Positions 46,638 to 64,000 are shown, counted from the first letter of the stretch. The stretch: 64,000 nucleotides of DNA from Gemmata sp. (GCA_025055115.1 JANWYJ010000079.1:1-64000); one strand, 5' to 3'. Made by a program: numbers and translations. Notes: generated by a model from the sequence alone, not told the origin.

Positions 46638-47078
46638 ATGCCTGCAATCCCTGTTCAAACGCCGGCCGGTCTGGAACCTGCGTTCGACCTCAGCGCGTAT
46701 TACCCTGTATTAATCTACGCGGCGGTCTGCGCGCTGGTCGGCTTTGGAGCCGTGGCCGCGACCCACTTGTTCCCCTTCAAGCCGCGTAAACCCCATCGCA
46801 TCAAGCAAATGCCGTATGAATCCGGCATGGACCCGGTCGGCTCGGCCCGGATGCAATTCGACATCAAGTTTTACCTCATTGCCATCACCTTCCTCATCTT
46901 TGATGTTGAACTGCTGTTCTTGTATCCATGGGTGGTGATCGCCTTCGCGGAGGGTGGCGATCCGCTGTGGCGAACGGTGTTTGGCACCGTCGCGTTCTTC
47001 GCGGTGTTGGTGTTCATTGGGCTTTTGGGAATTGCGTACCTGTACGAGTGGCGTAAAGGAACCTTCTCATGGCGCTAA
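46638..47078 (+). CDS. nuoA: NADH-quinone oxidoreductase subunit A
   Basis: A membrane subunit of complex I at the junction of the peripheral and membrane arms. The 146 residues hold three helices (about 24-44, 76-98, 109-131). The family block [20 protein letters not shown] lies in the loop after helix 1, and [11 protein letters not shown] with the conserved acids is in helix 2. The ten-base overlap with nuoB implies translational coupling. A weak GAG lies seven bases before the ATG. The N terminus is slightly longer than usual. Confidence 0.95.
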
Positions 47079-47671
47079 CGAATCTGCTGCCGGATTTCTT
47101 GGTGACCAAGCTCGACGCCCTCGCGAGCCTATTACGCAAGCACAGTTTGTGGCCGATGCCATTTGCCACCGCCTGTTGCGGCATCGAACTGATGGCCACA
47201 GCCAGCAGCCGGTACGACATTGCCCGTTTTGGCGCCGAAGCCATGCGTTTCTCGCCGCGGCAATGCGACGTCATGATCGTCGCTGGCCGCGTGGTGATGA
47301 AGATGGTGCCGGTGATGCAACGGATTTGGCTGCAGATGCCCGAACCCAAATGGTGCATCAGCATGGGAGCCTGCGCCAGTTCGGGTGGCGTGTTTGATAC
47401 CTACGCGGTGGTGCAGGGGATCGACCGTTTCATTCCGGTGGATGTGTACGTTCCCGGCTGTCCACCGCGACCGGAGCAACTCATTCGCGCGGTGTTAGAT
47501 TTGCAAGAAAAAGTTCAGAAGACCGGGACCATCGACGCCCGGGAATTCGCAGATCGGACCACTTACGAAGGCCCGACACCGCTGGCCCAAGAACTGGCCC
47601 CAGAACAAGCCATCGTCGCCCCCGGCGATTACCGCACCGCCACCCGGTTGCGCTCGCTGCCACTGGCGTGA
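47069..47671 (+). CDS. nuoB: NADH-quinone oxidoreductase subunit B
   Basis: The subunit that holds cluster N2, the last iron-sulfur centre before quinone. The 200 residues contain [23 protein letters not shown] and [10 protein letters not shown], which supply the four N2 ligands. A C-terminal extension of about 35 residues ([11 protein letters not shown] onward) is polar. AAGGA lies eight bases before the ATG, which sits inside the end of nuoA. Its stop overlaps a possible GTG for nuoC, but nuoC more likely starts at 47716. Confidence 0.96.
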
Positions 47672-47715
47672 ACCGCACCCGTGGATTTTGCATCCCTCGA
47701 CAGGCGACCTCACAT

Positions 47716-48219
47716 ATGGCCACACTCGACCAACTGCAGGCCCGATTCCCCGGCGCTTTCACGACGTCATCCTTCCGTGACAATGTCCGGGTGCTGATCA
47801 ATGCGGAAAAAGCCCCTACGGTCCTATTTCCCCTGCTGAAGTTCCTCAAAGAGGAATGCGGTTTCGACATGCTCGCCGAGCTGGGCGGCATCGACTACCT
47901 GAACTACCCCCAGGCTACCGACCGCTACTGCGTGGTGTATGGTCTGACAAACACCACCACCGGCGAGCGCCTGTGGGTGAAGGCGTTTGCCAACGATCCC
48001 GACCCCCAGTTGCCCTCGGTGGTCCCCTTGTGGAACGGAGCCAATTGGATGGAACGGGAAGTGTACGATATGTACGGTGTCCGCTTCACCGGCCACCCCG
48101 ATCTGCGGCGCATCCTATTGCCCGCCGAATTCACCGCCTTCCCGCTGCGCAAAGATTACCCCTTACGCGGCTATGGCGAACGCCACAACTTCCCCATCGT
48201 GACCCGAGCGGAGAGTTGA
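47716..48219 (+). CDS. nuoC: NADH-quinone oxidoreductase subunit C
   Basis: A 30-kDa-type peripheral-arm subunit that supports NuoD near the quinone site. From the ATG at 47716 there are 167 residues with the family's ANWMEREVYDMYGVRFTGHP, RRILLP and FPLRKDYPLRGYGER. The frame opens earlier at a GTG (47668), but those residues do not look like the family. nuoD follows after 186 bases with no gene between. Confidence 0.94.
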   Translation: MATLDQLQARFPGAFTTSSFRDNVRVLINAEKAPTVLFPLLKFLKEECGFDMLAELGGIDYLNYPQATDRYCVVYGLTNTTTGERLWVKAFANDPDPQLPSVVPLWNGANWMEREVYDMYGVRFTGHPDLRRILLPAEFTAFPLRKDYPLRGYGERHNFPIVTRAES

Positions 48220-48405
48220 TTGGCCGTTTTCACCCTGGCAACACATGCACTCAGAACCGCAGAAAACCCGAAGCGCCCAGGCCGCGGTATCGTCCCGCGA
48301 TCAACAGATCGTCCGGATACGGTTGTTATTCCGACTCAGGGTGTGATGGTGATACCGGTGTAGCCCACGCGCTTGATACCCGAGTTAATCTGGTGAGGGA
48401 CAGAC

Positions 48406-49641
48406 ATGCCGCTTCAAACCGCGTCACCGGTTCTCGACGATGATATTGCCGGTGCGGATCAAGAGTTTCTCTACACGCTGAACTTCGGGCCGCAGCACCC
48501 GGCCACACACACCACGCTGCGTCTGATTCTGACCCTCGACGGCGAAACCATCGTCAAAGCGGTACCCGACATCGGCTTCCTGCATTCCGGGTTTGAAAAG
48601 CTCGGCGAAGACCTCGACTTCAATCAGTACGTCACGATTGTCGACCGGATGAACTACATCTCCCCGGTAGCCAACGAAATCGCCTGGCACCATACTGTGG
48701 AGAAGCTCCTGGGCATCGAGATTACGCCGCGGTGCAAATACATTCGCACGATTTTGGCGGAATTGGCCCGTATCAGTGACCATCTTCTGTGCATTGGTGC
48801 CGCTGCCCTCGATCTGGGAGCGCTGACAGCTTTTCTGTACGCCTTTAACACCCGCGAAAAGGTCTACAACATCATCGAAGCGACCTCGGGGCAGCGGTTC
48901 CACCCGTCGTACACTCGCGTCGGGGGCCTGATGGCCGACATTTCCGACGACGTCATCGCGCTGATCCGCGATTTCGTCGCGACTTTCCCCAAAGCCCACA
49001 ACGACATCTGCCGCTTGCTCAACCGCAACCGGATTTTCATCGACCGGACCCAAGGGATCGGTGTTCTGTCGAAAGAAGATGCGATCAATTGGAGTTGCTC
49101 CGGCCCGGTGGCCCGTGCCAGCGGTGTCGTGCGCGACCTGCGCAAAGACGAACCCTACCTCGCCTACGGCGAACTGCAAAGTGCCTTCAAAGTGGTGTGT
49201 GGCAAAAGCGGCGACTGCTACAACCGCTACCTTGTTCGTATGGGTGAGATGCTGGAATCGTGGAAGATCATCGCCGCCGCCATCGAGAATCTGCCCGCCG
49301 GCCCCGTGAATGTCGATCTCAACGAGAAACTCACCATCCCGGATAAACCCGCAACCTACCGCAGCATCGAAGGGCTGATCCAGCACTTCGAGCTATTTAT
49401 GTGGAATCGCCGCTGGGAAACCCCGATCAACGAAGTGTATGGAGCCAACGAAACCGCTAATGGCGAACTGGGCTTCTATGTCGTTGCCGATGGGAGCGGC
49501 AAAGCCTTCCGGGCACGGACACGCCCACCCTCATTCATCCACTTCGCCATCTTCCCGCTGTTGATCGAAGGCCATCAAATTTCCGATGTCCCCGCGGTAT
49601 TGGGAAGTCTCAACATCATCGCGGCAGAATTGGACCGTTGA
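48406..49641 (+). CDS. nuoD: NADH-quinone oxidoreductase subunit D
   Basis: The 49-kDa-type subunit lining the quinone cavity with NuoB. The 411 residues contain NFGPQHPATHTTLRL, whose His is the quinone-site residue. DIGFLHSGFEKL, ARISDHLL, FHPSYTRVGGLMADI and a C terminus ending in LDR, typical of the family, follow. A few usual residues differ (Ser for Arg in FLHSG). A GAGGG lies just before the ATG. The 180 bases before nuoE hold no gene. Confidence 0.95.
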   Translation: MPLQTASPVLDDDIAGADQEFLYTLNFGPQHPATHTTLRLILTLDGETIVKAVPDIGFLHSGFEKLGEDLDFNQYVTIVDRMNYISPVANEIAWHHTVEKLLGIEITPRCKYIRTILAELARISDHLLCIGAAALDLGALTAFLYAFNTREKVYNIIEATSGQRFHPSYTRVGGLMADISDDVIALIRDFVATFPKAHNDICRLLNRNRIFIDRTQGIGVLSKEDAINWSCSGPVARASGVVRDLRKDEPYLAYGELQSAFKVVCGKSGDCYNRYLVRMGEMLESWKIIAAAIENLPAGPVNVDLNEKLTIPDKPATYRSIEGLIQHFELFMWNRRWETPINEVYGANETANGELGFYVVADGSGKAFRARTRPPSFIHFAIFPLLIEGHQISDVPAVLGSLNIIAAELDR

Positions 49642-49821
49642 TCATGACTCCCCAAAACCAGCAAGCCCAAAGCACCCACGCTAACCGACCCCCCAAGGAC
49701 CACGGCAACGCAAAGCCTGCACAACGACCAAGGATTTGGCGATAGGCAACCGATAGCGCACGGGTGAAACTGCTTTGTTGCGATCAGCCAGACCCGAATT
49801 GAGTCCTGCGAGGTAACGCTC

Positions 49822-50304
49822 ATGCCGGTATTGAGCGCTGAAATCCGCGAGAAAATCCAGAAACTCATCCCCCTGTATCCGCGCAAACAAGCGGTCACGC
49901 TGCCGGCGTTGCACCTGGTTCACGACACCCTGCGCACCGTCAGCAACGATGCCATCGTCGAGATCGCCGAGCTGCTGGAGTTGCACCCCTCCGAAGTGCA
50001 CGACACCATGACCTTCTACGCCTTCTTCAAAGGTGAAGGCGAAAAACTCGGCAAAACGCGGCTGTGGATTTGCCGCGGCCTGGCCTGCATGCTCCGCGGT
50101 GGCTACGAACTGATCGAACATTGCCAACAGAAACTTGGCATCCAGTGCGGACAAACCACCGCCGATGGCCAAATCACCCTGGAATTTGCCGAATGCATCG
50201 GGGCTTGCGACGGCGCTCCGGCGTGCCTGGTCAACGATGTTCACGCCATGAACATGACACCCGAAAAAGTCGACGAATTGATCACAGAGCTAAAATTGAA
50301 GTAG
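49822..50304 (+). CDS. nuoE: NADH-quinone oxidoreductase subunit E
   Basis: The 24-kDa-type subunit with the [2Fe-2S] cluster N1a beside NuoF. The 160 residues have a thioredoxin-like fold. The ligands are in CRGLAC and ECIGAC, close to the common spacing. The N-terminal helical bundle (PLYPRKQAVTLPALHLVHD) is normal. GAGG lies eight bases before the ATG. The 271 bases to nuoF show no convincing gene. Confidence 0.94.
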   Translation: MPVLSAEIREKIQKLIPLYPRKQAVTLPALHLVHDTLRTVSNDAIVEIAELLELHPSEVHDTMTFYAFFKGEGEKLGKTRLWICRGLACMLRGGYELIEHCQQKLGIQCGQTTADGQITLEFAECIGACDGAPACLVNDVHAMNMTPEKVDELITELKLK

Positions 50305-50575
50305 TCGTACCGGAGACGCGACAGGTCATGGGCCAACGACTTCGAGTTGCCCAGCACCCCCACGGAACCGAACCCCGGCGTGTCCACCGACCATGGCTCA
50401 CCCACAACTTTGTGATCGCGTGGCACAAACCCCAAAACCCCGATGAATCGGCGACAGTATGAGCCATCGTCCATGAAAAGCCTGGGAAGAACGTATCGAC
50501 CGCATGAACGACGCTCCGTACGCATGGACGTTCACGCGCGGATCATAACCCAACGCACCAACCCCCAACCGACCT

Positions 50576-51940
50576 ATGCCCTACGAACCTGTATTACTCG
50601 CACGCATCCACAAGCCGGATAGCACCCGGCTCGAAGGCTACCGCGCCGATGGCGGGTACGAAACCTTCGCACGCGTGCTGAAAGACAAACAACCCCACGA
50701 GGTTGTGCAACAAATCAAAGACAGCGGATTACGCGGCCGCGGCGGCGCCGGCTTCCCCTGCGGGCTGAAATGGACCTTCCTCCCGAAAGATCACCCGGGG
50801 CCAATCTACCTGTGCGTCAATGCCGATGAATCCGAACCGTGTACCTACAACAACCGCATCCTGATGGAAAAAGACCCCCATCAGGTCCTCGAAGGCGTCA
50901 TACTCGCCTGCTATGCCATCCGCGCCCAGAAAGCCTTCTACTACATCCGCTACGAATACGGAGATGCCTACCGAGCGACGCAGGCCGCTGTCGACGAACT
51001 GTATGCCGCTGGGTTGCTCGGCCAGAACATCCTCGGCAGCGGCTTCAACCTCGATATTGTGGTGCACCGCGGTGCCGGAGCGTACATCTGTGGCGAAGAA
51101 ACCGGTCTGATCGAATCGCTCGAAGGGAAACGGGCCTGGCCGCGGATCAAACCCCCCTTCCCCGCGATCGAAGGCGCCTTCCGCAAGCCCACCATCGTCA
51201 ATAACGTCGAAACACTCGCCTGCGTCAACCAAATCCTGCGCCGCGGCGTCGATTGGTTCAAATCGCTGGGTGTGCCGCCCGACCCCAACAACCCCCGTGA
51301 CGCAGGCAGCTACGGCCCGAAATTGTACACCCTCGCCGGACACGTCGAAAAACCATGCTGTGTCGAACTGCCGATGGGTGTTAGCCTGCGCGAACTTGTC
51401 GAAAAGCATGGCGGCGGCGTGTGGAAAGGACGCAAAGCCAAAGCGATCAACCCCGGTGGGCTGAGCATGGGCTTTATCCGTTGCGATGCCCCGCTGAAGG
51501 GTGAAGATGGTAAAACCGAGTATGACATTCCCCTCGACTTCAACGGCCCCGGTAAAGCCGGCTGCCTCGGTTTAGGCACCGCTGCCGTCACCGTCATCGA
51601 CGATCAAACCAGCATGATCGACGTTCTTCACAACACCTGCCAATTCTTCGCCCACGAAAGCTGCGGACAATGCACCCCCTGCCGCGAAGGCACCGGCTGG
51701 ATGCTCAAAATCATGGACCGCATGCGCCGCGGGCTGGGTCGCCGCGAAGACCTCGACATTCTCATTGACGTTGGCGAACGAATTGGCATCATGCCCGGTA
51801 CCACCATCTGCGGACTCGCCGACGGTGCCGGCTGGCCGGTCAAAACCGCCATCCGCAAATTCCGCGACGAGTTCGAAGCAGCCATCAAAAGCGGTGCGAA
51901 AAGCCCATACGCCCGCTCGCTGGCGATGGCCGGGCACTAA
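50576..51940 (+). CDS. nuoF: NADH-quinone oxidoreductase subunit F
   Basis: The NADH-oxidising subunit with FMN and cluster N3. The 454 residues include LRGRGGAGFPCGLKW (NADH/FMN), VNADESEPCTYNNR (FMN; Cys and Tyr differ from the common GTF), GAYICGEETGLIESLEG and the cluster motif SCGQCTPCREGTGW with a later GTTICGL. Length matches the family. There is no clear ribosome site, as for several genes of this operon. A lipoprotein gene starts 21 bases after the stop and separates it from nuoG. Confidence 0.95.
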   Translation: MPYEPVLLARIHKPDSTRLEGYRADGGYETFARVLKDKQPHEVVQQIKDSGLRGRGGAGFPCGLKWTFLPKDHPGPIYLCVNADESEPCTYNNRILMEKDPHQVLEGVILACYAIRAQKAFYYIRYEYGDAYRATQAAVDELYAAGLLGQNILGSGFNLDIVVHRGAGAYICGEETGLIESLEGKRAWPRIKPPFPAIEGAFRKPTIVNNVETLACVNQILRRGVDWFKSLGVPPDPNNPRDAGSYGPKLYTLAGHVEKPCCVELPMGVSLRELVEKHGGGVWKGRKAKAINPGGLSMGFIRCDAPLKGEDGKTEYDIPLDFNGPGKAGCLGLGTAAVTVIDDQTSMIDVLHNTCQFFAHESCGQCTPCREGTGWMLKIMDRMRRGLGRREDLDILIDVGERIGIMPGTTICGLADGAGWPVKTAIRKFRDEFEAAIKSGAKSPYARSLAMAGH

Positions 51941-51961
51941 CAGTTCCTCGGAGGGGCCGCG

Positions 51962-52783
51962 ATGCGTTCTGTTCTGCTGATCGCGCTGCTGATTCCGCTG
52001 CTATTCACCCTGGGATGTGGCCAGCGGACCGCCCGCAAACCCGCGGCAAAGCCCACGGAAACGGCTGCTGCTCCGCAGCCAGCTCCGCCGCCACCCGCCG
52101 GAGTCGCAGAAAAAAACACCCCAACCAACCCCAAAACCCCCAACGACGCCGATGATGAACCCAATTGGCTAAAACCCACCCCCCGACCGGAACCCACCGT
52201 CGCCCCCGGCGGTAGCGGCAAAGTCCCCTGGGGGATCATCCCCCCCGACGGCGGCTGGAACAACCCCAACCCCAGCATCCCACCGATGCCGCAACCCGCG
52301 CCCCTTCCGCAACCCCCACCGAACTCACCGCCGCAACCACGACCCCAACCGCCGGCCGTCGGCCCGGCCAAGCCCCCGCCGCAACCGCTGCCCCAACCGC
52401 CACCAGGCATGGGCCGGCTCGACCCACAACCGCAACCAGCTTCTCCCCCCGCTAAGCCCCCCTCAGTCGACCCGACCGAACTGCCAGTCGTGACGGAAGC
52501 TGACATGAAGGAAGTATGGATTTTCATCGAAAACGCCTCGCTGGCCAGCGGCCGGATGCCGCCCCCCGTACTCACTTATACGGCCTTGGTGGAAGCGAAA
52601 TCGAAGGCCGCACCCTTGGTGAAAGCCGGTTCCATCTACCTGACCGGCTCACCACAACGCGAAAGCATCTGGGCCTTCGACTTCCGAGCTTTCAGCCGCG
52701 GCGAACCCGTCCTGGTCGCTACCCACAACGGAGTCGAAACACTCACCGTGGAACAACTGAAAGCCCGCTTGGGAGCAAAATAA
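51962..52783 (+). CDS. Proline-rich lipoprotein inserted in the nuo operon
   Basis: I recognise no family. The 273 residues have a lipoprotein signal with lipobox LFTLGC (Cys19). A disordered stretch of about 140 residues extremely rich in Pro, Gln and Lys follows (about 27-165). A compact C-terminal domain of about 100 residues (VTEADMKEVWIFIENASLA onward) has mixed helix and strand. GGAGGGG lies eight bases before the ATG, one of the best ribosome sites in the operon. It lies 21 bases after nuoF and 288 before nuoG, in the same direction, so it is probably co-expressed. The Pro-rich arm could span the periplasm. Confidence 0.75.
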   Translation: MRSVLLIALLIPLLFTLGCGQRTARKPAAKPTETAAAPQPAPPPPAGVAEKNTPTNPKTPNDADDEPNWLKPTPRPEPTVAPGGSGKVPWGIIPPDGGWNNPNPSIPPMPQPAPLPQPPPNSPPQPRPQPPAVGPAKPPPQPLPQPPPGMGRLDPQPQPASPPAKPPSVDPTELPVVTEADMKEVWIFIENASLASGRMPPPVLTYTALVEAKSKAAPLVKAGSIYLTGSPQRESIWAFDFRAFSRGEPVLVATHNGVETLTVEQLKARLGAK

Positions 52784-53071
52784 GGGACTATTGCGATTTC
52801 CCGCGCCCCCAGGTCGCTCGCAATCCCTGGGGAAAATGACGGAAAAATGATGGAAAACAGCCAGAAAGTGCTGGATGGGAAAAAATGAAGCCCACACCAC
52901 CCGACGGCGCTGGGCATTCCTACCCAAGCTCGGGGTCATATATCACCCGCTGGAGGGATGCCCACCGACGCACCCGATGAGAATCACCCGATCATAACTT
53001 CTCCTGGGTCTTCGGTCTTGGTGTGGTCAATACTCACAACGATATTCCTCCCAGTTGCCTAGGATTTGTTC

Positions 53072-54763
53072 ATGCCAACGGTCTATGTGAACGATAAGCC
53101 GGTCGAAATCGGCACCGCGAAGCTCAACTGCGTTCAAGCCGCGGAACGGGCCGGGGTGTTCATTCCCCACTATTGCTGGCACGAAGCTTTATCCGTGGTG
53201 GCCAGTTGCCGGATGTGCTTGGTCGAAGTCGGCGAACTCAAGGACGGCAAAGTGATCATGCAGCCCAAAGTCGTTCCTGGCTGCCAAACCCCGGTGAAAG
53301 ATGGCACGGTCATCGTCACCGGCGAGTACGATAAACGCGATCCCAGCCTGCCGCCGCTGCCCTACGACCCCAACTACACCAAAATCCCCCTCGGCGAACG
53401 GGCGAAAAAAGCCCAAGCCGATACTCTGGAAGCCTTGCTGCTCAATCACCCGCTCGATTGCCCGGTCTGCGATAAAGCCGGGGAATGCAAACTGCAAGAC
53501 TTCAGCTACAAATACGGCCGCTCCGAATCGCGCATGGTCGATGTGAAAAACACCCCGCCCAACAAACCACACATCTCCAGCACTATCACACTCTTCACCG
53601 ACCGTTGCATCATGTGTACCCGCTGTGTCCGCTTCACCCGGGAAATCAGCGGCACAGCCGAACTGCAAGTCGTCGGTCGCGGCCATCACGAAGAAATCGA
53701 TATTTTCCCCGGCCGGCCCCTCGAAAACAAACTGGCCGGCAATGTCGTCGATCTTTGCCCTGTGGGCGCGTTGGGCAGCAAAGACTTCCTTTACAAACAA
53801 CGGGTGTGGTACCTGAAAACCACCGAAGGCGTCTGCAACCGATGTTCCACAGGCTGCAGTACTTACGTCGATTCCAATAAAGACATCGTCTACCGGCTCC
53901 GCGCCCGTACCAACCTCCAGGCCCAAGGCTACTTCATCTGCGACGAAGGGCGCTACGGCTACCACCACGCCAACGCTGCCGAGCGGTTCGTCCGCCCCGT
54001 GGTGAAAACCAACGGCCGCTTCCAACCCCAACCGTGGAATCGGTTACTACCCCAACTGAAGCAAGAATTCACAACCGCGGCCCAAACCCACCCCCGCGGG
54101 GTCGTCGCGGTGCTGTCGCCGTTTCTCACCGTCGAGGAAGCCTATTTGTTGGGCCGTTACTTCAAATCACTGGCACCGGAGGTGCGGCTGGTCCTCGGTC
54201 CGGTACCAGTGATCGGGGAGGACGACAAATACCCCAAAAACGCCCGCGGCGAACCCGTCGAACCCATCAAATTCATCATCCGAGCTGAAAAAGCCCCCAA
54301 CCGCATCGGTGTGGAAGAAGTGCTCAAAGCTCTTCAGGGCGAGGTCATCCCGCTGGCCACGATCACCAACGAGACCCTGACGGCGCTGTGGTTCGCTGGC
54401 GGCTACCCGGACCCGGCCCACCTCGATGCCCTCATTCCGACCCGTTGGGCGATGCCTCCCCTGCTGGTGACCCAAGACATCTTACCCACTATGATGAGTG
54501 CCGCGGCCAAGTACATTCTGCCGGCGACCACCGGTTTTGAGAAAGACGGAACTTTCGTTAACCATGCGGGTTACGCCCAAACGTTCAGCCGGGCTGTCCG
54601 CCCCCCCGTCGAAGTGCGCAGTGAGTTGCAATTAGCCTTCGATCTGTTGGGCCGACCCGGCTTGGTACAGCCCGCCGCGATCCGCCAGGAAGTGGCGGCG
54701 GCAATCCCCTACTTCGCCCAACTCGGGGCCACCAACCCAGCGCCCCCGAGCCATCATCAATAA
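53072..54763 (+). CDS. nuoG: NADH-quinone oxidoreductase subunit G, short form
   Basis: The largest iron-sulfur subunit of the peripheral arm. The 563 residues show the N1b ligands (C35, C46, C49, C71), HPLDCPVCDKAGEC, the 4Fe-4S set DRCIMCTRCVRFTREI, and GVCNRCSTGCSTYVD. The molybdopterin-oxidoreductase-like part is only about 300 residues, much shorter than the about 900-residue E. coli protein. TTG at 53066 is in frame, but the ATG at 53072 has AGGA seven bases upstream. nuoH follows after 111 bases. Confidence 0.93.
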   Translation: MPTVYVNDKPVEIGTAKLNCVQAAERAGVFIPHYCWHEALSVVASCRMCLVEVGELKDGKVIMQPKVVPGCQTPVKDGTVIVTGEYDKRDPSLPPLPYDPNYTKIPLGERAKKAQADTLEALLLNHPLDCPVCDKAGECKLQDFSYKYGRSESRMVDVKNTPPNKPHISSTITLFTDRCIMCTRCVRFTREISGTAELQVVGRGHHEEIDIFPGRPLENKLAGNVVDLCPVGALGSKDFLYKQRVWYLKTTEGVCNRCSTGCSTYVDSNKDIVYRLRARTNLQAQGYFICDEGRYGYHHANAAERFVRPVVKTNGRFQPQPWNRLLPQLKQEFTTAAQTHPRGVVAVLSPFLTVEEAYLLGRYFKSLAPEVRLVLGPVPVIGEDDKYPKNARGEPVEPIKFIIRAEKAPNRIGVEEVLKALQGEVIPLATITNETLTALWFAGGYPDPAHLDALIPTRWAMPPLLVTQDILPTMMSAAAKYILPATTGFEKDGTFVNHAGYAQTFSRAVRPPVEVRSELQLAFDLLGRPGLVQPAAIRQEVAAAIPYFAQLGATNPAPPSHHQ

Positions 54764-54874
54764 CCCTGGAAGCGGTGACAGAGGATCGACCCCGCCGTCC
54801 GACCGCTTGCGACCACCACTGACCTCGGCCACCGAGGGAGCGTCCACCCCTGTTACCCACCGACTGGAATCGCT

Positions 54875-56116
54875 ATGCCGCTATTTGATCCTACCACCAC
54901 CGCCATCCTCATCGTCGGCGTCATTGCCGGCGTGATGGGAGTTTGCGCTTATCTGACCTTAGGTGAACGGAAAATTTCCGCCTGGATGCAAGACCGCATC
55001 GGCCCCAATCGCGTTGGTCCGGGCGGCTTGTTACAGCCGATCGTCGATGGTGGGAAGTTCTTTCTGAAGGAAGAAGTCATTCCCGATCATGTGGATAAAG
55101 TGTTTTATGTGATCGCGCCGGCTGTGGCCCTTACCACCGCTCTGTTGGCTTTGGCGGTGGTCCCGATAGGAGCCACTACCCCCGCCCCCGACCCGGTGGC
55201 GATAACACCCCTCGGGGCGGTCGATGCCTTCTACCAACAACAGGCGGAGTATCAGAGTCACTTCAACTTCATCATCGCCCCCGGCTTGGACATTGGCATA
55301 CTGTACATCTTTGCCCTGGGTTCTCTGGCCGTCTATGGTGTCATTCTCGCCGGTTGGAGTGCGAACAACAAATACTCTCTCCTGGGAGCCTTGCGCAGCT
55401 CCGCCCAAATTGTCAGTTATGAAATCCCCCTGGGACTTTCCGTGTTGGGGGTGTTTCTAATTGTTGGTTCGCTCAATCCCGAAAAGATCATCGCTTGGCA
55501 AAGCACCCACGGTTGGTTCATCGTCTTCATGCCACTAGGATTTCTACTGTTTTTGACCAGTAGCTACGCCGAATGCAGCCGCCTGCCCTTCGACTTGCCC
55601 GAAGCCGAACAAGAACTCGTCGGCGGTTACCACACCGAGTACAGCTCGCTCAAACTCGGCCTGATGCTGCTGACGGAATACGTTCACCTGGTGACCGCCA
55701 GCTTCATCATCGCGGTGTTGTTCTTAGGCGGGTGGAACTTGTTGGGACTGGAAAGCCTGTTTGAGAATCCCGTGGCGACGGCAGTGATGAAGCTCCTCAT
55801 TCTCACCGGCAAGATGGTGAGTTTGTGCATTTTTGCACAATTCATCCGCTGGACCATTCCCCGTTTCCGCTTCGACCAACTGATGAACCTGGCGTGGAAA
55901 GTGATGATCCCGCTGACTCTTCTGAACTTTCTCGCCGTCATGTTCCTGCTCCAATGGCAGTTGCCCTTATTTATACTAACGTTCATCAATGTTGTGCTCT
56001 TTTTCGGGGCCGGACTGTTCGGAGTCTGGTTCCGCGGATCGGTTTCCAATCCGAAACGCCGGGTGGTGAAACTGCCGCCCGGGCTGCCCCCGGGGGTAAC
56101 CTTTGCGGGCCGATAA
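54875..56116 (+). CDS. nuoH: NADH-quinone oxidoreductase subunit H with enlarged loop
   Basis: The membrane subunit that forms the quinone entry. The 413 residues contain ERKISAWMQDRIGPNRVGPGG, the family motif after helix 1, and YSLLGALRSSAQIVSYEIPL and LPFDLPEAEQELVGGYHTEY later. Between helix 2 and helix 3 (about 100-135) the loop is some 30 residues longer than usual (GATTPAPDPVAITPLG then a Gln-rich part). By family topology that loop faces the periplasm. nuoI begins 63 bases after the stop. Confidence 0.95.
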   Translation: MPLFDPTTTAILIVGVIAGVMGVCAYLTLGERKISAWMQDRIGPNRVGPGGLLQPIVDGGKFFLKEEVIPDHVDKVFYVIAPAVALTTALLALAVVPIGATTPAPDPVAITPLGAVDAFYQQQAEYQSHFNFIIAPGLDIGILYIFALGSLAVYGVILAGWSANNKYSLLGALRSSAQIVSYEIPLGLSVLGVFLIVGSLNPEKIIAWQSTHGWFIVFMPLGFLLFLTSSYAECSRLPFDLPEAEQELVGGYHTEYSSLKLGLMLLTEYVHLVTASFIIAVLFLGGWNLLGLESLFENPVATAVMKLLILTGKMVSLCIFAQFIRWTIPRFRFDQLMNLAWKVMIPLTLLNFLAVMFLLQWQLPLFILTFINVVLFFGAGLFGVWFRGSVSNPKRRVVKLPPGLPPGVTFAGR

Positions 56117-56179
56117 TCGGGCCATCGGGTGACGGATGAACTCCCTCGGTGAATCGAAACGCTATCTCACGGTGCTGCC

Positions 56180-56746
56180 ATGCCAATACCTGAATCCGAA
56201 GTGACCTGGGTGGAAGAGGCGAAATTGGGCCTCTGGGAGCAACTGTATGTTCCCGCCCTGGTGGCTGGGCTGAAAACCACGCTCAGCCATATGTTCAAAC
56301 CCAAAATCACCGAGCAATATCCCGAACAGGAACCCCAACTGCCGGCAAACTACCGGGGTGTCCATCGTCTCAACCGCGACGAAGCCGGACGGGTGAAGTG
56401 TGTGGCTTGCTATATGTGTGCCACCGCGTGCCCAGCGCACTGCATCGACATTGTCGCGGCTCCGGCTCCGCCAGAATGGCAAAAGGATGGCCGCGAAAAA
56501 TATCCCGAAACCTTCGTGATCGACGAATTGCGCTGCATCTACTGCGGGATGTGCGAGGAAGCCTGCCCCGTGGATGCGATTGAACTGACGACCCTCTACG
56601 ACCTCACCGGCTTAAGCCGCGAACAGATGATCTTCGACAAAGAGAAGCTCCTGAGCGTCTTTGATGTCACGACCCAAGCTGGTACTGACCCGATCCGCAC
56701 ACGTTCCGGTCCCCTGGGGCCGGCCAGCGAACCACCCCCGGCGTGA
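56180..56746 (+). CDS. nuoI: NADH-quinone oxidoreductase subunit I
   Basis: A ferredoxin-like subunit with two [4Fe-4S] clusters (N6a, N6b) leading to N2. The 188 residues contain CVACYMCATACPAHCIDI and CIYCGMCEEACPVDAIEL, the complete pair of motifs, and FVIDELRC between them. The N-terminal amphipathic segment is normal. A short hairpin GCCCTT-CCG-AAGGGC lies at 56752-56766 just after the stop, without a T-run. Confidence 0.96.
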   Translation: MPIPESEVTWVEEAKLGLWEQLYVPALVAGLKTTLSHMFKPKITEQYPEQEPQLPANYRGVHRLNRDEAGRVKCVACYMCATACPAHCIDIVAAPAPPEWQKDGREKYPETFVIDELRCIYCGMCEEACPVDAIELTTLYDLTGLSREQMIFDKEKLLSVFDVTTQAGTDPIRTRSGPLGPASEPPPA

Positions 56747-56981
56747 TCTACGCCCTTCCGAAGGGCCAGCCCCCCAGCAACCGCCCGACGCGCCGCGACA
56801 ACGCCGACCCGCCAAACGGCAGATGGAAACTGACCCCCTCGCTGCCCGTTTCGGGCCGGCCTCCGGCGGATGTTGCGGATAGGTGCTGACGTTGCGGATA
56901 GGTCCGGATGGTATTGCCTCGGCGTCGTACTGCCCGTGCTGCGTGCTTGCCACGAGTCAGGGTCCAAGGGGTCGACCGATT

Positions 56982-57077
56982 CTTCAGCCCGGAAGGCGTG
57001 TTTCACCCTGCGGCTTCAGCCTGGAAGGCGTCTTTCACCTTGCGGCTTCAGCCCGAACGGCGTGCTTTTCCCTGCGG
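56982..57077. repeat. Three tandem 32-bp units
   Basis: Units begin CTTCAGCCCGGAAGGCGTGT or a close variant at 56982, 57014 and 57046, each 32 bases and ending in TGCGG. Divergence grows to the right. Confidence 0.85.
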
Positions 57078-57145
57078 TCGGCTATGTCGGTCAGTGCCTC
57101 CAAGGCCGTTGCAGAACCCGAAAAAAGAAGCCGCATTCGGCCACA

Positions 57146-57181
57146 ATCCCAATGTGTTGAAACATCCCAATGTGTTGAAAC
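57146..57181. repeat. Two tandem 18-bp units
   Basis: ATCCCAATGTGTTGAAAC occurs twice in succession (57146-57163, 57164-57181) without change. Confidence 0.85.
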
Positions 57182-57270
57182 AACCGCGAGCCTCCGAGAG
57201 CATGGCTTCTCCACCCCGATTTTCCTGGTTTGAGAACCGATTTTAGGCCGGCGGAAATGATACCCCACTT

Positions 57271-57316
57271 CGCACCGGTTCATCAGTCCGCCTCGCACCG
57301 GTTCTTCAGTCCGCCA
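57271..57316. repeat. Two tandem 23-bp units
   Basis: CGCACCGGTTCATCAGTCCG plus CCT (57271-57293) is followed by a copy with two changes (57294-57316). Confidence 0.8.
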
Positions 57317-57425
57317 CGACCTCGACGACGACCGCCGCCACCACGACGGTTCCAGTGATGCCCACTGCGCTCCGGTTCTTCGGCCCGGAGGATGTGTTTC
57401 TCTGGTCGGATTTCTCCGCGCAGCG

Positions 57426-57453
57426 CTGACGCCACGACAGCAGCTTATATATC
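57426..57453 (+). promoter_or_regulatory. Weak internal promoter candidate before nuoJ
   Basis: CTGACG (57426-57431) and TATATC (57448-57453) are 16 bases apart, about 40 bases before nuoJ. Matches to consensus are only partial; the AT-rich TTATATATC in GC-rich surroundings is the main reason to list it. Confidence 0.25.
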
Positions 57454-57494
57454 ATCGTCGTTCGGCTTGTGACAAACTTCACGAGCAAGGTACG

Positions 57495-58715
57495 ATGTTG
57501 TTTGCACTCAGTCCAACGCAAGAAACCACAGGTTATGTTGCCGTCGCGACGCTGCTGGCCATTGCGGGGGTGTTTCTGCTACTTCCGCGCCCCCGCGGGC
57601 GGTTCGTCCCGGGGGGAATAGCCCTACTGATCGCCGCGGCCGCGGTCTTCGGTACGTGGTTATACCGCACATTCGGCCAACCGATGCCCGATGTGATTGG
57701 CTCGGCCCTGTTTTGGCTCTTTTCTGCCGGGGCAGTGGTTTTTGGGACGGTTCTCGTCACCCAGCGGAACCCGGCGCGCGGCGCGTTGGCGTTCGCGTTT
57801 GTCATTTTGAGCACCTGCGGCCTTTTCCTGCTACTGGCCGCCACTTTCCTGATGGCCGCAACCATCATCATCTACGCGGGGGCCATTGTCGTCACTTTCC
57901 TTTTTGTGCTGATGCTGTCGCCGTCCCACGCTCCGACCGACGAAAACGATCGCAGCCGCGAGCCGCTCGCCGGGGCGTTGGCCGGCTTTGCTTTCGTCGG
58001 CTTGGTGCTGTTGGCGTTATTTCAAACCAGTCTGACCAATCAACGGGATCATTTGTTGGCGCAATTAGTCACCCCGTTGGAACGAGAGAAGCTGGCGGCG
58101 GCAATTGCCCAATTGGACGCGGCCGAGAAAGCCCTGGCCGGTGACACCAGCACCGCGGTGGCCCGTGAGCAGCGGTTGGCGGCGTTTGACGCGGCTTTCA
58201 GTCCGGTCCGCAATGCCCTGGCCGAAGTGGTGGGAGTATCCAGCGCCGAGCAGATTCACAGCCCCCAGGAAGGCTCGCTGCCGCAGCGTTTAGGCCGCCT
58301 GGGGACGGTCTCGGGTGGGCCGGAGAAACTGTTTCGTGCCGATGTCGCGGCGCGGCAAACTCTGACACAGGCGGCCACAGTCCGCGAATTACTCCACCGC
58401 GTGCCCCCGACCGTGGAAGCGATCATCAGCATGCCCGCAGCGGGTCAACCGGTGGATGTAGCTACGGCCCAAGCGGAGGTGCGGAAGCTGCGGGATGCCG
58501 TGGTCCTTCTCCACGGAGCCGGGCTGATGCCTGCGCGGAATGTGGCGAATTTGGGTTATGGTCTGTATGCGGAACATTTGTTGGCCATTGAACTGGCGGG
58601 GGTTTTATTGCTGGTCGCCACCATTGGCGCGGTAGCCATTTCCCATCGGAAACGAGAGCCTTTGCCGACGCCGGATGCCAAGAACGCTCCGGCTGGCGTG
58701 GAGGGGGTGCAGTGA
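57495..58715 (+). CDS. nuoJ: NADH-quinone oxidoreductase subunit J, greatly enlarged
   Basis: NuoJ is a five-helix membrane subunit near the quinone end, usually 165-200 residues. This one has 406. The canonical helices are at about 66-88, 96-119, 121-140 (IIIYAGAIVVTFLFVLML), 157-176 and 362-383 (HLLAIELAGVLLLVATIGAV). Extra parts are two N-terminal helices (about 12-30 and 40-58) and about 170 soluble, mostly helical residues (about 178-348) between the last two helices. The frame is continuous and the expected last helix follows, so this is not a frameshift. The stop overlaps the nuoK start by four bases. Confidence 0.92.
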   Translation: MLFALSPTQETTGYVAVATLLAIAGVFLLLPRPRGRFVPGGIALLIAAAAVFGTWLYRTFGQPMPDVIGSALFWLFSAGAVVFGTVLVTQRNPARGALAFAFVILSTCGLFLLLAATFLMAATIIIYAGAIVVTFLFVLMLSPSHAPTDENDRSREPLAGALAGFAFVGLVLLALFQTSLTNQRDHLLAQLVTPLEREKLAAAIAQLDAAEKALAGDTSTAVAREQRLAAFDAAFSPVRNALAEVVGVSSAEQIHSPQEGSLPQRLGRLGTVSGGPEKLFRADVAARQTLTQAATVRELLHRVPPTVEAIISMPAAGQPVDVATAQAEVRKLRDAVVLLHGAGLMPARNVANLGYGLYAEHLLAIELAGVLLLVATIGAVAISHRKREPLPTPDAKNAPAGVEGVQ

Positions 58716-59143
58716 CCATCACTTTATGGCACTTTCTCGCTGTAGCAACGGTATTGTTTGGTCTGGGTTGGGTCGGTTTTCTCACCCGGCGCAATCTCAT
58801 CACCATGTTTTTATGTGCCGAGATGATGTTGCAAGGCGTGGCGATCAATTTCGTAGCCTTTGCGTTTTACCATGGGAATTTGCAAGGCCAGGCGTTTGTG
58901 TTGTTTTTGCTTGCCGTTGCGGCGTGTGAAGCGGGCATCGCCCTGGCATTGTTTGTCAGTCTGTATCGCCGTCAGCGGTCGTTGGATAGCTCGGATTGGC
59001 AACACTTACGGGAACCGGGCATTCCCGTAGCGGTGGACGAGGAACCGCTCCCGGCGGCTCCTGACGAACGCTTCCCCACGCTGCCACCCGCGGGGGTCCG
59101 CCCAGCATCGGCGCTAGGTCCGGAGGAGGTGGCCCGTGTCTGA
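58712..59143 (+). CDS. nuoK: NADH-quinone oxidoreductase subunit K with C-terminal tail
   Basis: A three-helix membrane subunit with key Glu residues for proton transfer; both are seen, in CAEMMLQGVAINF and AACEAGIALALF. The 143 residues exceed the usual about 100 by a C-terminal Pro/Glu-rich tail (about 100-143) without membrane segments. Start is GTG overlapping the nuoJ stop by four bases. Its own end overlaps nuoL by eight bases, and the nuoL ribosome site lies within the tail's codons. Confidence 0.93.
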   Translation: MTITLWHFLAVATVLFGLGWVGFLTRRNLITMFLCAEMMLQGVAINFVAFAFYHGNLQGQAFVLFLLAVAACEAGIALALFVSLYRRQRSLDSSDWQHLREPGIPVAVDEEPLPAAPDERFPTLPPAGVRPASALGPEEVARV

Positions 59144-61091
59144 ACCGACGTCACTGGCCCTGGCGATTCTTGCCTTACCCCTTGCGGCCGCAGTGCTGGC
59201 GTGGCTGTCGGCCGCCAACGCCACGACGAAAAAACTCGCTCACCTGCCGCTGATCCTGGCCTGTGCCGCCGCAGCGGTCCTGGCGGTGATCCTATTGGGT
59301 CAGATGCTGGATGGGCATGAAAGCCGCTACACTTCCGAGCCACTGACGTGGTTTGCTGCTGGGCAGCTGGATGTTCACTTCACCATCACCGTCGATGCCC
59401 TGGCGACGGTGATGCTGGGCATGATCACGTTCATCGCCACGTTCATCGCCTTGTTTTCCAGCGGCTACATGCATGGCGATCGCGGTTATGCTCGTTTCTT
59501 TGCGGTGATGAGCTTTTTCGTCTTCAGCATGTGCGGGCTGGTGTTGGCCAACAATTTTCTGCTGCTGGTGGCGTTTTGGGAAGGCGTGGGTCTGTGTTCG
59601 TACCTGTTGGTGGGTTATTACTTCGAGAAACCCAGTGCCGCCGCGGCGGCGCGGAAGGCGTTCCTCGTCACGCGCTTGGGTGACACGGGCTTTTTGCTCG
59701 GTATTTTCCTGCTGTGGAAGATGGGTGGCGGGCATACCGATTTAGACTTGCTCTTTGCCCACATCCGCGACCATCCACCCGACCCCGGCCTGCTGACCAC
59801 CGCCTGTTTGTTACTTTTCTGCGGCGCCGTGGGCAAAAGCGCGCAATTCCCGCTGTATGTGTGGTTGCCCGATGCGATGGAAGGCCCCACCCCGGTTTCC
59901 GCTCTGATCCATGCCGCCACGATGGTCACCGCGGGGGTATACCTGCTAGCCCGCTGTGCGCCGCTGTTTGTGCTCTGCCCCGAGGCGCAAATCGTGGTTG
60001 CCGGCGTGGGTGGCATCACCGCGCTTCTGGCCGCTTTTCTGGCTCTTGGCCAGACCGATCTGAAGCGCATTCTCGCCTACTCCACCGTCAGCCAGCTGGG
60101 CTATATGTTCATGGCCCTGGGCACCGGCGGGGCGATCAGCCCGGCCTTCGCGGTCGGTGCCGCTATGTTCCACCTGTTCACCCACGCCTTCTTCAAAGCC
60201 TTGCTGTTCCTCTCCGCCGGCAGTGTGATGCACGCCATGGGGAATGTGATCGACATCACCCGCTTCAGCGGCTTGCGGAAAGTCCTGCCCATCACCCACC
60301 TCACCTTCCTCTGTGGGGCGGCGGCCCTGGCGGGGGTTCCGCTACTGTCGGGCTTTTGGAGTAAAGACCTCATTTTGGAATCGCTCACCGAAGCCAGCGA
60401 AAGTGCCAGCCCCTACAGTGCTGGCTATTTCGTGCTGTTTCTCAACGCCTGCCTGACTGCCGGGCTAACCGCCTTCTACACCTTCCGGGCCTACTTCCTG
60501 ACCTTCTGGGGGCCTGAAAAAATCCCCGCGGAGGCCGGCGACCACGCCCACGAATCACCGCGTTCGATGACCATTCCGCTCATGGTGTTGGCCGTCGGAG
60601 CTGTGTTCGTGGGGGGGGTCGTCCAGCCGTTCACCCACTGGTTCAGCGATTTTCTGGGCACCAGCCCCTCCCTGACCGAAACCCAAGCCCCAATAGCTCG
60701 TGCCGTGGAACATCATCTCAACTGGACCTTGATCAGCATCAGTGCCAGCCTGGCCATCGCGGGGATTGTGTTGGCCTATGTTCTGTACCGGGATGGCCAA
60801 GAGAAACCTCTCGGTGGTATAGACACACTGTTGGCCCTTTCCCGCAACAAGCTTTACGTCGATGAGGTGTATTACGCCCTGATCGTCCGACCGGCCGAAG
60901 TGCTGGCGTTTCTAGTGCGCGTCTTCGATGGCTTCCTCGACGGGCTGACGCGTCTTGTCGCGGCTATGCCGCGTCTGCTGGCGGCACTGATTCGCCCATT
61001 ACAAAACGGTCTGGTTCAGTTTTATGCTCTGGCGATGGCCCTAGGCCTGACGGTGTTCGTGGCATTTGTGATTTTCCGCATGGCTCGCTAG
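59136..61091 (+). CDS. nuoL: NADH-quinone oxidoreductase subunit L
   Basis: The outermost antiporter-like subunit of complex I, which carries the long lateral helix. The 651 residues include FWEGVGLCSYLLVGYY with the key Glu, KSAQFPLYVWLPDAMEGPTPVSALIHAATMV, and ILAYSTVSQLGYMF, where Lys and His residues form the proton path. The lateral helix region follows about residue 500. Length is normal, unlike NuoJ and NuoM. The GTG at 59136 has AGGAGG six bases upstream. Confidence 0.95.
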   Translation: MSEPTSLALAILALPLAAAVLAWLSAANATTKKLAHLPLILACAAAAVLAVILLGQMLDGHESRYTSEPLTWFAAGQLDVHFTITVDALATVMLGMITFIATFIALFSSGYMHGDRGYARFFAVMSFFVFSMCGLVLANNFLLLVAFWEGVGLCSYLLVGYYFEKPSAAAAARKAFLVTRLGDTGFLLGIFLLWKMGGGHTDLDLLFAHIRDHPPDPGLLTTACLLLFCGAVGKSAQFPLYVWLPDAMEGPTPVSALIHAATMVTAGVYLLARCAPLFVLCPEAQIVVAGVGGITALLAAFLALGQTDLKRILAYSTVSQLGYMFMALGTGGAISPAFAVGAAMFHLFTHAFFKALLFLSAGSVMHAMGNVIDITRFSGLRKVLPITHLTFLCGAAALAGVPLLSGFWSKDLILESLTEASESASPYSAGYFVLFLNACLTAGLTAFYTFRAYFLTFWGPEKIPAEAGDHAHESPRSMTIPLMVLAVGAVFVGGVVQPFTHWFSDFLGTSPSLTETQAPIARAVEHHLNWTLISISASLAIAGIVLAYVLYRDGQEKPLGGIDTLLALSRNKLYVDEVYYALIVRPAEVLAFLVRVFDGFLDGLTRLVAAMPRLLAALIRPLQNGLVQFYALAMALGLTVFVAFVIFRMAR

Positions 61092-61144
61092 CTGACGCAA
61101 ACGGCTCCGTTTCCGGTACAGAGAAACTCAGGAACTGGAACGCA

Positions 61145-63187
61145 ATGTCGATCACCGCTGTTCTCCGGATTGTGGTTCTACTGCTGGTGCTGATGCCGTT
61201 GGTATCAGCCCTGATTCTGCCGATGTTGGGCCGTTGGAGCCGACGTGCTGCCCTGCTGCTGGCACTCGTCCACGGCGGATTGACCGCGGCGGTGGTCGCC
61301 TTGGCCATTCCCACCTTGGCCCTGCGCGCCGACGACGATGCCCGGCGTGGCAGCGGCAGCTTAGTATTCCAACCGGAATTTGTGCCTGGCGACACCTACG
61401 CTCGCTTCAACGACGAAGGCAGCGATGGCCGTACCCGTTGGACCCTCTTCCGCCTCTCCGCTAATTCCAGCCAACCCGGACCGAATATCCAATTTTTCCT
61501 GGGTATCGACGGCTTGAATCTGTGGTTGGTGGCCCTGGCCAGCTTCCTGCTGGTGCCGGCGATTCTCATTTCCTGGAACACGGTTGCGGACCAACCGGGG
61601 TCCTACTTCGGCTGGCTCTTTCTGCTCCAAGCCGGATTGATCGGCTGCTTTTTGGCATTCGATGTCATTCTCTTTTACGTTTTCTTTGAGCTGACGCTCA
61701 TCCCAGCGTTTTTCTTGATTGGCCGCTGGGGTGTTGGCTCGGGGCGACGGGATGCCGCCCGCAAATTCTTCCTTTACACTCTTGCGGGCAGTCTGCTGAC
61801 GCTATTGGGGATTATTGGCGTGGTACTCACCAATCCGGTCCCGGTTCACCCGGAGACGGGCTTTCCCACCCAAAACGTCTTGGTGAAAGTGGAAGTTCCG
61901 GACGCTGGCAGCCCCACGGGCAAGTCGCGCGAATTTGTTTGGGCAAAACGGATTCATACCTTCAGTCTGCCCGATCTGATGAACGCCGTGCCCCGGTGGC
62001 TCACCGCGGAAAAAGCCGCCCAGACAGCCCTGACGGAAGCGCAACGGGAGATGGAACTGGCTCAAGCCCTCGTGCGCGCCGGCGAGAAAGAACTGGCCCA
62101 ACGCCGGGCGGCCCTCGAAGCCGCTCGCCAAGGGAAAGATGGCGCCGCGATCCGTGCCGCCGAAGCCGCTGAACAGCACGCTCTTCAAATGCTGAACGAT
62201 TGGCGAGCGAACTGGCAGGCCGCTGTCCGACTTTCCGACAGCGCGACGAAACTACTCCCGGAAGCCCGCCGGCTTCAAGCCAACGCCTCCCAGCTCCAAT
62301 TCTGGCTGTTTGTGGCCCTGATGGCCGGATTGATGGTGAAAGTTCCGGTCTGGCCATTCCACACCTGGCTGCCCGCCGCTTACGGAGAAGCTCCGATCGG
62401 CGTGGTCATGTTGCTCTCAGGACTGATGGCCAAACTCGGGACTTTCGGCATGGTGCGTCTGGTACTGCCCTTGGTTCCCGATGCAGCCATCCACTACGGG
62501 CTGCCAGTGATTGGTGTGTTGGCTTCCGTCGGCATCGTTTACGCCGCGTTCTGCGCCTTGGCTTCCAAAGATATGAAGCTTTTGATCGCCTACAGCTCCA
62601 TTTCCCACCTGGGTTTCCTCGTCCTCGGTATCTTCGCCTTCAATAGCGAAGGTCTTAGCGGGGCCGTACTGCACATGATCAACCATGGGCTGAGTACCGG
62701 GGCCTTGTTTGCCGTGCTGGGCTTCTTCACAACTCGCTACGGCACCACGGAAATGGCCCGCTTCGGGGGGCTGATGGGCCGCTTCCCGGTCCTGGCTGTT
62801 CTGACCTTCGTCCTGGCGTTGGCCAGTGTGGGGCTGCCCGGATTAAACAACTTCGTCAGCGAAATGCTTATGCTCGCCGGACTGTTCCGCACGAACAATC
62901 CCCATGTGACCAACCTGTGGCCGGCCGTTGTGGCCGCATTCGGCATTTTCTTGGGAGCCTGGTACACGTTGACCATGCTGCAACGGGTCTTCTTCAACCC
63001 CTTGAAGGAACCGCAGCCAATAATCACAACGCCGGTGAACGATGTGAACAATCGCGAATTCTCCGCGTTAGGACTTCTGGCCCTGTTGTGTTTGGTGTTG
63101 GGGCTGTTCCCCCAACTTGTGCTAGACACGATGAAGCCCGACATCCAGATACTCGCGAACATCGGTGACGCCGCCCGAACGCGCTGA
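61145..63187 (+). CDS. nuoM: NADH-quinone oxidoreductase subunit M with coiled-coil insertion
   Basis: An antiporter-like proton-pumping subunit, usually about 500 residues. This one has 680. The core is canonical: FYVFFELTLIPAFFLIGRWG with the key Glu, KVPVWPFHTWLPAAYGEAPI, and LIAYSSISHLGFLVLG. Between helix 6 (about 209-228) and helix 7 (about 384-403) lie some 155 residues where about 35 are usual. Residues 287-375 are rich in Ala, Glu, Gln and Arg in heptad-like order, suggesting a helical hairpin. A second, smaller extension is at about 60-115 after helix 2. A 22-bp tandem repeat spans the stop codon. Confidence 0.93.
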   Translation: MSITAVLRIVVLLLVLMPLVSALILPMLGRWSRRAALLLALVHGGLTAAVVALAIPTLALRADDDARRGSGSLVFQPEFVPGDTYARFNDEGSDGRTRWTLFRLSANSSQPGPNIQFFLGIDGLNLWLVALASFLLVPAILISWNTVADQPGSYFGWLFLLQAGLIGCFLAFDVILFYVFFELTLIPAFFLIGRWGVGSGRRDAARKFFLYTLAGSLLTLLGIIGVVLTNPVPVHPETGFPTQNVLVKVEVPDAGSPTGKSREFVWAKRIHTFSLPDLMNAVPRWLTAEKAAQTALTEAQREMELAQALVRAGEKELAQRRAALEAARQGKDGAAIRAAEAAEQHALQMLNDWRANWQAAVRLSDSATKLLPEARRLQANASQLQFWLFVALMAGLMVKVPVWPFHTWLPAAYGEAPIGVVMLLSGLMAKLGTFGMVRLVLPLVPDAAIHYGLPVIGVLASVGIVYAAFCALASKDMKLLIAYSSISHLGFLVLGIFAFNSEGLSGAVLHMINHGLSTGALFAVLGFFTTRYGTTEMARFGGLMGRFPVLAVLTFVLALASVGLPGLNNFVSEMLMLAGLFRTNNPHVTNLWPAVVAAFGIFLGAWYTLTMLQRVFFNPLKEPQPIITTPVNDVNNREFSALGLLALLCLVLGLFPQLVLDTMKPDIQILANIGDAARTR

Positions 63188-63221
63188 GTGTACAGCAACA
63201 ACGCGCTGAGTGTACAGCAAC
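63178..63221. repeat. Perfect 22-bp tandem duplication across the nuoM stop
   Basis: AACGCGCTGAGTGTACAGCA plus AC occurs at 63178-63199 and 63200-63221. The first copy contains the last nuoM codon and its TGA. A 12-base palindrome GCAACTAGTTGC follows. Confidence 0.92.
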
Positions 63222-63286
63222 TAGTTGCCGAAGCCTTGTTCCTGTGGCGAGCGATTCCTCCGGCTACACAAACCTCATAACCTGCG

Positions 63287-64000
63287 ATGACCGATCCACT
63301 TTATCAACAAACGCTCACCGGGGTTTTCCGGCACGCGATCCCGGAAATGATCCTGCTTGGCACAGCGTGTATCGTGTTGCTATTGGGTTCGGTTGTGAAC
63401 CGGCGGTGGCTGTGGTTTGTTGTTTCACTTCTGGGTGTGATAGCGGCATTGATTGTAGCCGGAACGCTTCGGCCGCAACCGCCGGAATTACTCACTGTCT
63501 CGCCTCTAATCCCCGACGCGGCCGCGGCCTTTGTGCGTTGGGTGGCCCTGATCGCGCTAGCCGTGTTGCTCTTCGTCGCGTGGGGGGAAACGGATCGTAG
63601 CAACGCCGCGGAATACTACGGTTGCTTGTTGATTACCGGAGCGGGCGTTTCGCTGGTCGGCCGAGCGAACGACTTGGTAACTTTGTTTCTGGCCCTCGAA
63701 CTGCTTTCTATTCCCACTTACGTTTTGCTCTATTTACCCGCCCGAGACCTACGGAATCAAGAAGCCGCGACCAAATATTTCCTTCTGAGTGTGATGTCGT
63801 CGGCGGTGGTGCTGTTCGGTTTCAGCTATCTGTATGGCCTGACCGGCAGTGTGAACCTCACGATGATCGCGGAGGCGATCACCCAGGCCCACACAACGGC
63901 CGATCGGCCCAATCCCATGGCGATGTTAGCCGCGGTGATGGTCCTGGCGGGCCTCGGTTTCCGTCTGACAGCGGTACCGTTTCACTTTTACGCGCCGGAT
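63287..64000 (+). CDS. nuoN: NADH-quinone oxidoreductase subunit N, cut by window end
   Basis: The antiporter-like subunit next to NuoJ/K. The 238 residues visible from the ATG at 63287 have no stop and include helices in order, FLALELLSIPTYVLLY with the key Glu, and the start of the block FRLTAVPFHFYAPD. The reading frame is open at base 64000. Spacing from nuoM is 99 bases. It completes the standard nuo order. Confidence 0.93.
   Translation, partial: MTDPLYQQTLTGVFRHAIPEMILLGTACIVLLLGSVVNRRWLWFVVSLLGVIAALIVAGTLRPQPPELLTVSPLIPDAAAAFVRWVALIALAVLLFVAWGETDRSNAAEYYGCLLITGAGVSLVGRANDLVTLFLALELLSIPTYVLLYLPARDLRNQEAATKYFLLSVMSSAVVLFGFSYLYGLTGSVNLTMIAEAITQAHTTADRPNPMAMLAAVMVLAGLGFRLTAVPFHFYAPD

Follow-up and report, generated by a model that had tools for sequence, protein, structure and literature searches.

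The periplasmic face of respiratory complex I is enlarged in Gemmata sp. (GCA_025055115.1, JANWYJ010000079.1:1-64000), and this enlargement of core subunits is real and conserved in a bacterial family. Large loop additions were found in NuoH, NuoJ and NuoM, which are encoded in one operon of the 64,000-nucleotide stretch of DNA that was analyzed, hereafter the window. The window genes and gene parts given below with coordinates lie on the plus strand.

The window contains the genes nuoA to nuoN in that order, all 14 in one operon (46638..63998, from NCBIfam and Pfam profiles and ORFs); nuoF and nuoG are separated by a gene for a lipoprotein. The genes nuoC to nuoM were assigned by NCBIfam/Pfam profile search, and the identities of NuoH, NuoJ and NuoM were confirmed by both databases. 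nuoA (46638-47078) and nuoB (47069-47671) were named from sequence and position, and nuoN, which extends beyond the window end at 64 kb (the contig ends at 64173), was assigned from its partial sequence. Judged from these genes, the complex is in its core an ordinary 14-subunit NADH:quinone oxidoreductase, with proton-pumping activity predicted. Another contig of the same genome contains a second complex-I-like cluster. Short tandem repeats (32 nt x3, 18 nt x2 and 23 nt x2) are found in the 750-base stretch between nuoI and nuoJ (56747-57494), where no convincing gene was recognized.

Loop lengths were measured as the residues between fixed alignment anchors, with E. coli K-12 as the reference and loci from Chloroflexi, Nitrospirae and Acidobacteria as further controls. 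The NuoJ TM4-5 loop has 162 residues compared with 2 in E. coli (about 160 more) and 6-9 in other phyla. The NuoM TM6-7 loop has 156 compared with 25 (about 130 more) and 17-36, and the NuoM TM2-3 loop 62 compared with 28 (34 more) and mostly 22. The NuoH TM2-3 loop has 37 residues compared with 6 in E. coli and 15-22 in other phyla, an excess of about 15-31. An insertion scan across the subunits, which was not aimed at the named loops and had only three usable outgroups for NuoJ, recovered the same enlarged loops, and the large loop additions in it were periplasmic loops of NuoH, NuoJ and NuoM. NuoL showed a single 9-residue insertion, and NuoN, scored in the relative L074 because the window NuoN is incomplete, showed two insertions of 9-10 residues. 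A preliminary description of this DNA had given about 30, 170 and 120 extra residues for NuoH, NuoJ and NuoM and had called the catalytic helices intact and continuous. The measured lengths bear out the former, and the latter agrees with insert-flanking helices that align unbroken to solved structures. That description was correct but understated, because the NuoM TM2-3 loop, an N-terminal extension of NuoJ, the C-terminus of NuoH and a NuoK tail come in addition. The NuoK C-terminal tail (42 residues, 102-143; 59015..59140) was found by the insertion scan and is cytoplasmic by topology. No significant Pfam matches to the inserts were obtained.

The NuoJ TM4-5 insert (residues 184-347; 58044..58535) is predicted to fold as a confident four-helix bundle on the periplasmic side. 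The AlphaFold2 model, a monomer built from a shallow alignment of 47 rows, has a pLDDT of 77.9, a pTM of 0.65 and seven TM helices, with the bundle at 188-345 and its helices mostly at pLDDT 92-97; at this pTM the orientation of the domain is uncertain. The insert measures 146-174 residues in all 15 genus members with a recovered nuoJ, 88-152 in related Gemmataceae-type loci and mostly 11-60 in other Planctomycetota, where L092 (124) and L160 (83) are among the exceptions. An origin of the domain from a gene elsewhere in the genome was considered and is unlikely: matches to the insert in the family are single per genome, and the match in the window is nuoJ itself.

NuoJ also carries an N-terminal extension of two extra TM helices (residues 1-70, or 67-70 residues; 57495..57704), placed at 7-29 and 38-60 in the AlphaFold2 model and missing from the list of the preliminary description. 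It occurs in most sampled 14-subunit operons of Planctomycetota, Phycisphaerae included, and is absent in other phyla and in the second complex-I-like cluster. The two-TM extension is an older, phylum-wide element.

In NuoM, the TM6-7 insert (residues 230-383; 61832..62293) is predicted to consist of beta strands followed by a two-helix coiled-coil hairpin whose second helix enters TM7. The AlphaFold2 monomer model, from a shallow alignment of 42 rows, reaches a mean pLDDT of 92.4 (mostly 89-97 in the insert region) and a pTM of 0.90. It places strands at 232-270 and helices at 288-330 and 333-399, of which the latter passes into TM7 without a break, and the hairpin sequence has a seven-residue (heptad) periodicity. 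The body of the model superposes on E. coli NuoM with Z 49.6 and 2.1 A over 495 residues. The pumping residues E182 in TM5, K399 in TM7, K430 in TM8 and E573 in TM12 are invariant among homologues. The TM2-3 periplasmic loop (residues 56-115; 61310..61489) is enlarged as well. In the loop comparison, the TM6-7 loop is enlarged in all 17 NuoM proteins of the genus, the window counted. Lengths above 100 residues are limited to the window, its sister G310 (L069), L070, L076, L078 and L100; the remaining 11 of 17 have 45-46 residues. The long hairpin is restricted to a sub-branch. In the more distant Gemmataceae locus L144 the loop has 100 residues. The NuoM of the second complex-I-like cluster (L086, G000:C93:30000-49900; L105) has its own TM6-7 loop of 109-112 residues, which is unrelated in sequence to that of the window.

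The enlarged NuoH TM2-3 periplasmic loop (residues 100-136; 55172..55282) is without any K or R. NuoH also has a 49-residue C-terminal extension that contains a ninth hydrophobic TM helix (55967..56113). The insertion scan found this extension absent in most of the outgroups used; Thermus thermophilus Nqo8 (4he8) aligns into this additional TM region, and its TM2-3 loop is short.

The membrane side was derived from the alternation of TM helices, with the N-terminus outside, and from the positive-inside pattern. The three large inserts fall outside and the short Arg/Lys-rich loops inside, and the two extra NuoJ helices preserve the topology register. The ND4 TM2-3 and TM6-7 loops are periplasmic in the structure from P. 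denitrificans, and the NuoM placement agrees with it (PMC11522691). The periplasmic location given in the preliminary description is therefore supported by topology for NuoH, NuoJ and NuoM, and for NuoM also by that structure. Since the inserts share one predicted side and those of NuoJ and NuoH are present in closely related genomes, neither opposite-side placement nor absence from relatives counts against the claim for NuoJ or NuoH.

Comparison of sister genomes shows purifying selection on the NuoJ and NuoM inserts. Between the window and G310 the inserts are 78-80% identical, with no gaps in NuoJ or NuoM. The NuoJ insert has a dN/dS of 0.12, the NuoM TM6-7 loop one of 0.17 and the NuoM hairpin alone one of 0.26, compared with 0.04-0.06 for the subunit cores; these ratios are rough because synonymous divergence is high. 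The hairpin evolves much faster in L070, L076 and L078 (dN/dS 0.6-0.9). A sequencing or frame artefact, or chance, was ruled out by the same gap-free loops in G310 together with dN/dS.

Two further membrane proteins served as controls. COX1 of the same genome, aligned to a solved oxidase, has no large insert. SecY has no domain-sized internal loop insert, and its loops are modestly longer. At its N-terminus, SecY (L189:1138-2673; putative start codon) is extended by about 50 residues that include two hydrophobic stretches. Given this extension and these loops, some general tendency to growth may therefore exist. A general bloating of loops in all membrane proteins is weakened by COX1, NuoL and the L074 NuoN, and the growth in SecY is only modest.

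The lipoprotein gene between nuoF and nuoG (51962..52783) encodes 273 aa with a signal bearing a conserved Cys, a Pro-rich linker and a C-terminal domain (52490-52780) that has one copy in its own genome. It is a dedicated nuo-operon gene. All 18 of 18 clear family matches are located between nuoF and nuoG; three weaker matches and one tandem copy share this position, and another match is at a contig end. The profile is present in 47 of the 102 genomes of the order, and among 246 phylum genomes it found one marginal case besides the window's own. A few genomes have a second, weaker match outside the operon, and G311, G330, G356, G362, G385 and G398 each have two neighboring domain matches on one contig, resembling a tandem duplication. 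The profile search gave no match in G302, G298 and G306, which belong to the genus and retain the NuoJ insert; therefore, the lipoprotein is not an obligatory partner of that insert. In G302 and G298 the nuoF-nuoG gap is filled by other ORFs. At the site that holds the lipoprotein in sister genomes, L080 has an unrelated 145-residue ORF (L080:10864-11301), presumably of the GxxExxY type. The C-terminal domain of the lipoprotein may resemble pilin-like DUF1559-type tails; Pfam gave no support for this reading.

Raw loop lengths were strongly correlated across 68 loci. They were corrected for phylogeny by independent contrasts on a NuoL tree, and ten pairs were tested in total, the NuoJ extension counted. 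Two of the five cross-subunit correlations survived the contrasts: NuoJ TM4-5 with NuoM TM2-3 (r=0.39, p=0.0008) and NuoM TM6-7 with NuoH TM2-3 (r=0.35, p=0.005). No significance remained for NuoJ with NuoM TM6-7 (p=0.07), NuoJ with NuoH (p=0.09) or NuoM TM2-3 with NuoH (p=0.29). After Bonferroni correction for the ten pairs, the NuoJ TM4-5/NuoM TM2-3 pair survives and the NuoM TM6-7/NuoH TM2-3 pair is borderline. Such covariation in length is compatible with contact between the parts, without demonstrating it.

We propose that in Gemmataceae-type planctomycetes the membrane arm of complex I gained folded additions on its periplasmic face, which would comprise the NuoJ four-helix bundle, the NuoM coiled-coil hairpin and the longer NuoM and NuoH TM2-3 loops, added to the older pair of NuoJ TM helices. 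The additions may brace the periplasmic side of the arm, may offer a surface on which a partner complex or the nuo-linked lipoprotein, for example, could dock, and may stand in for inter-membrane-space accessory subunits of mitochondrial complex I; they would take no part in proton transfer. This lineage-specific elaboration of an ordinary 14-subunit enzyme, structural or docking in role, is probably the correct reading. Rather unlikely is neutral or slightly deleterious loop growth without specific function in a lineage that tolerates long extracytoplasmic loops. Loop lengths do differ widely among species, the NuoM hairpin is confined and in part fast-evolving, SecY has also grown, and the second cluster has arrived at an unrelated long loop in the same place; however, both large inserts are confidently predicted to fold, they are gap-free and constrained between sister genomes, and NuoL and COX1 are without such growth. 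A very improbable alternative makes the NuoJ bundle a periplasmic domain for sensing or ligand binding, through which complex I would be regulated. McpN (6gcv), the ligand-binding domain of a bacterial sensor, is among the fold matches with Z 9.3, but the matches are generic helical bundles, the best being a designed protein at Z 12.7, within the background that the tool warns of. Furthermore, a PDB sequence search with the insert gave no match, as was the case with Pfam, and no conserved binding motif or CxxCH haem motif was recognized in it by eye. The missing better fold match does not prove a new fold.

The preliminary description had joined the three parts, perhaps with the lipoprotein, into one periplasmic superstructure. 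Its shared face holds, as does the dedication of the lipoprotein to the nuo operon; constant co-occurrence does not, because NuoJ inserts are found without the long hairpin or without the lipoprotein. That these parts form one continuous superstructure, possibly with the Pro-rich linker as a tether between complex I and either the outer membrane or another complex, is unlikely. In its favor, every large loop insert lies on one face, the lipoprotein is locked to the operon, some loop lengths covary after correction, and the hairpin helices, with 43-48 residues and an estimated length of about 65-70 A (1.5 A per residue), could span to a neighboring subunit. However, NuoJ and NuoM are not neighbors in the membrane arm, where NuoK and NuoN sit between them, and in the model the hairpin helix is an extension of TM7 and would thus appear to point away from the membrane. 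More doubtful still is the fully assembled version, a continuous scaffold of NuoJ bundle, NuoM hairpin and NuoM/NuoH loops that is bound by the lipoprotein, whose linker would tether the enzyme either to another respiratory complex or to the outer membrane.

Returning to the elaboration favored here, the window complex resembles the E. coli membrane arm (3rko, 7nyh) in its subunits, its pumping residues and a NuoM body that superposes; it differs in that E. coli NuoJ (184 aa) and NuoM (509 aa) are without the inserts and without the NuoJ two-TM extension. In mitochondria, the membrane arm receives additional mass on its positive side from the separate CHCH-type subunits NDUFA8 and NDUFS5. The window likewise has extra protein on that side, but here it is built into core subunits, and a test for twin CX9C motifs found no cysteine in the translations of the NuoJ insert (184-347) or the NuoM insert (230-383). 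In Paracoccus denitrificans complex I (8qby), enlarged ND4 (NuoM) TM2-3 and TM6-7 periplasmic loops have been described, and where NDUFA8 and NDUFS5 are lacking the domain is reported to be stabilized by the TM2-3 hairpins (PMC11522691). By analogy with these loops that replace accessory subunits, the role of the additions is most likely structural or docking. The P. denitrificans additions are beta-hairpins and one flexible ND5 loop, whereas the folds predicted for the window are a coiled-coil hairpin within the 156-residue NuoM insert and a helical bundle of 160 residues in NuoJ. Thus, the novelty claimed against model complex I stands for scale and not for kind. No papers on planctomycete complex I inserts were found in a literature search, and a variant with core-subunit periplasmic domains is apparently undescribed in the literature searched.

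Bacterial complex I is usually viewed as the minimal form, with extra mass coming as accessory subunits. In Gemmataceae, folded periplasmic domains appear to have been added to the core subunits themselves, and a lipoprotein has taken a fixed place in the operon. The periplasm of Gemmataceae is enlarged and invaginated, itself a puzzle. The family may offer a natural test case for two questions: whether the arm must be braced on its positive face, and where partner proteins can dock.
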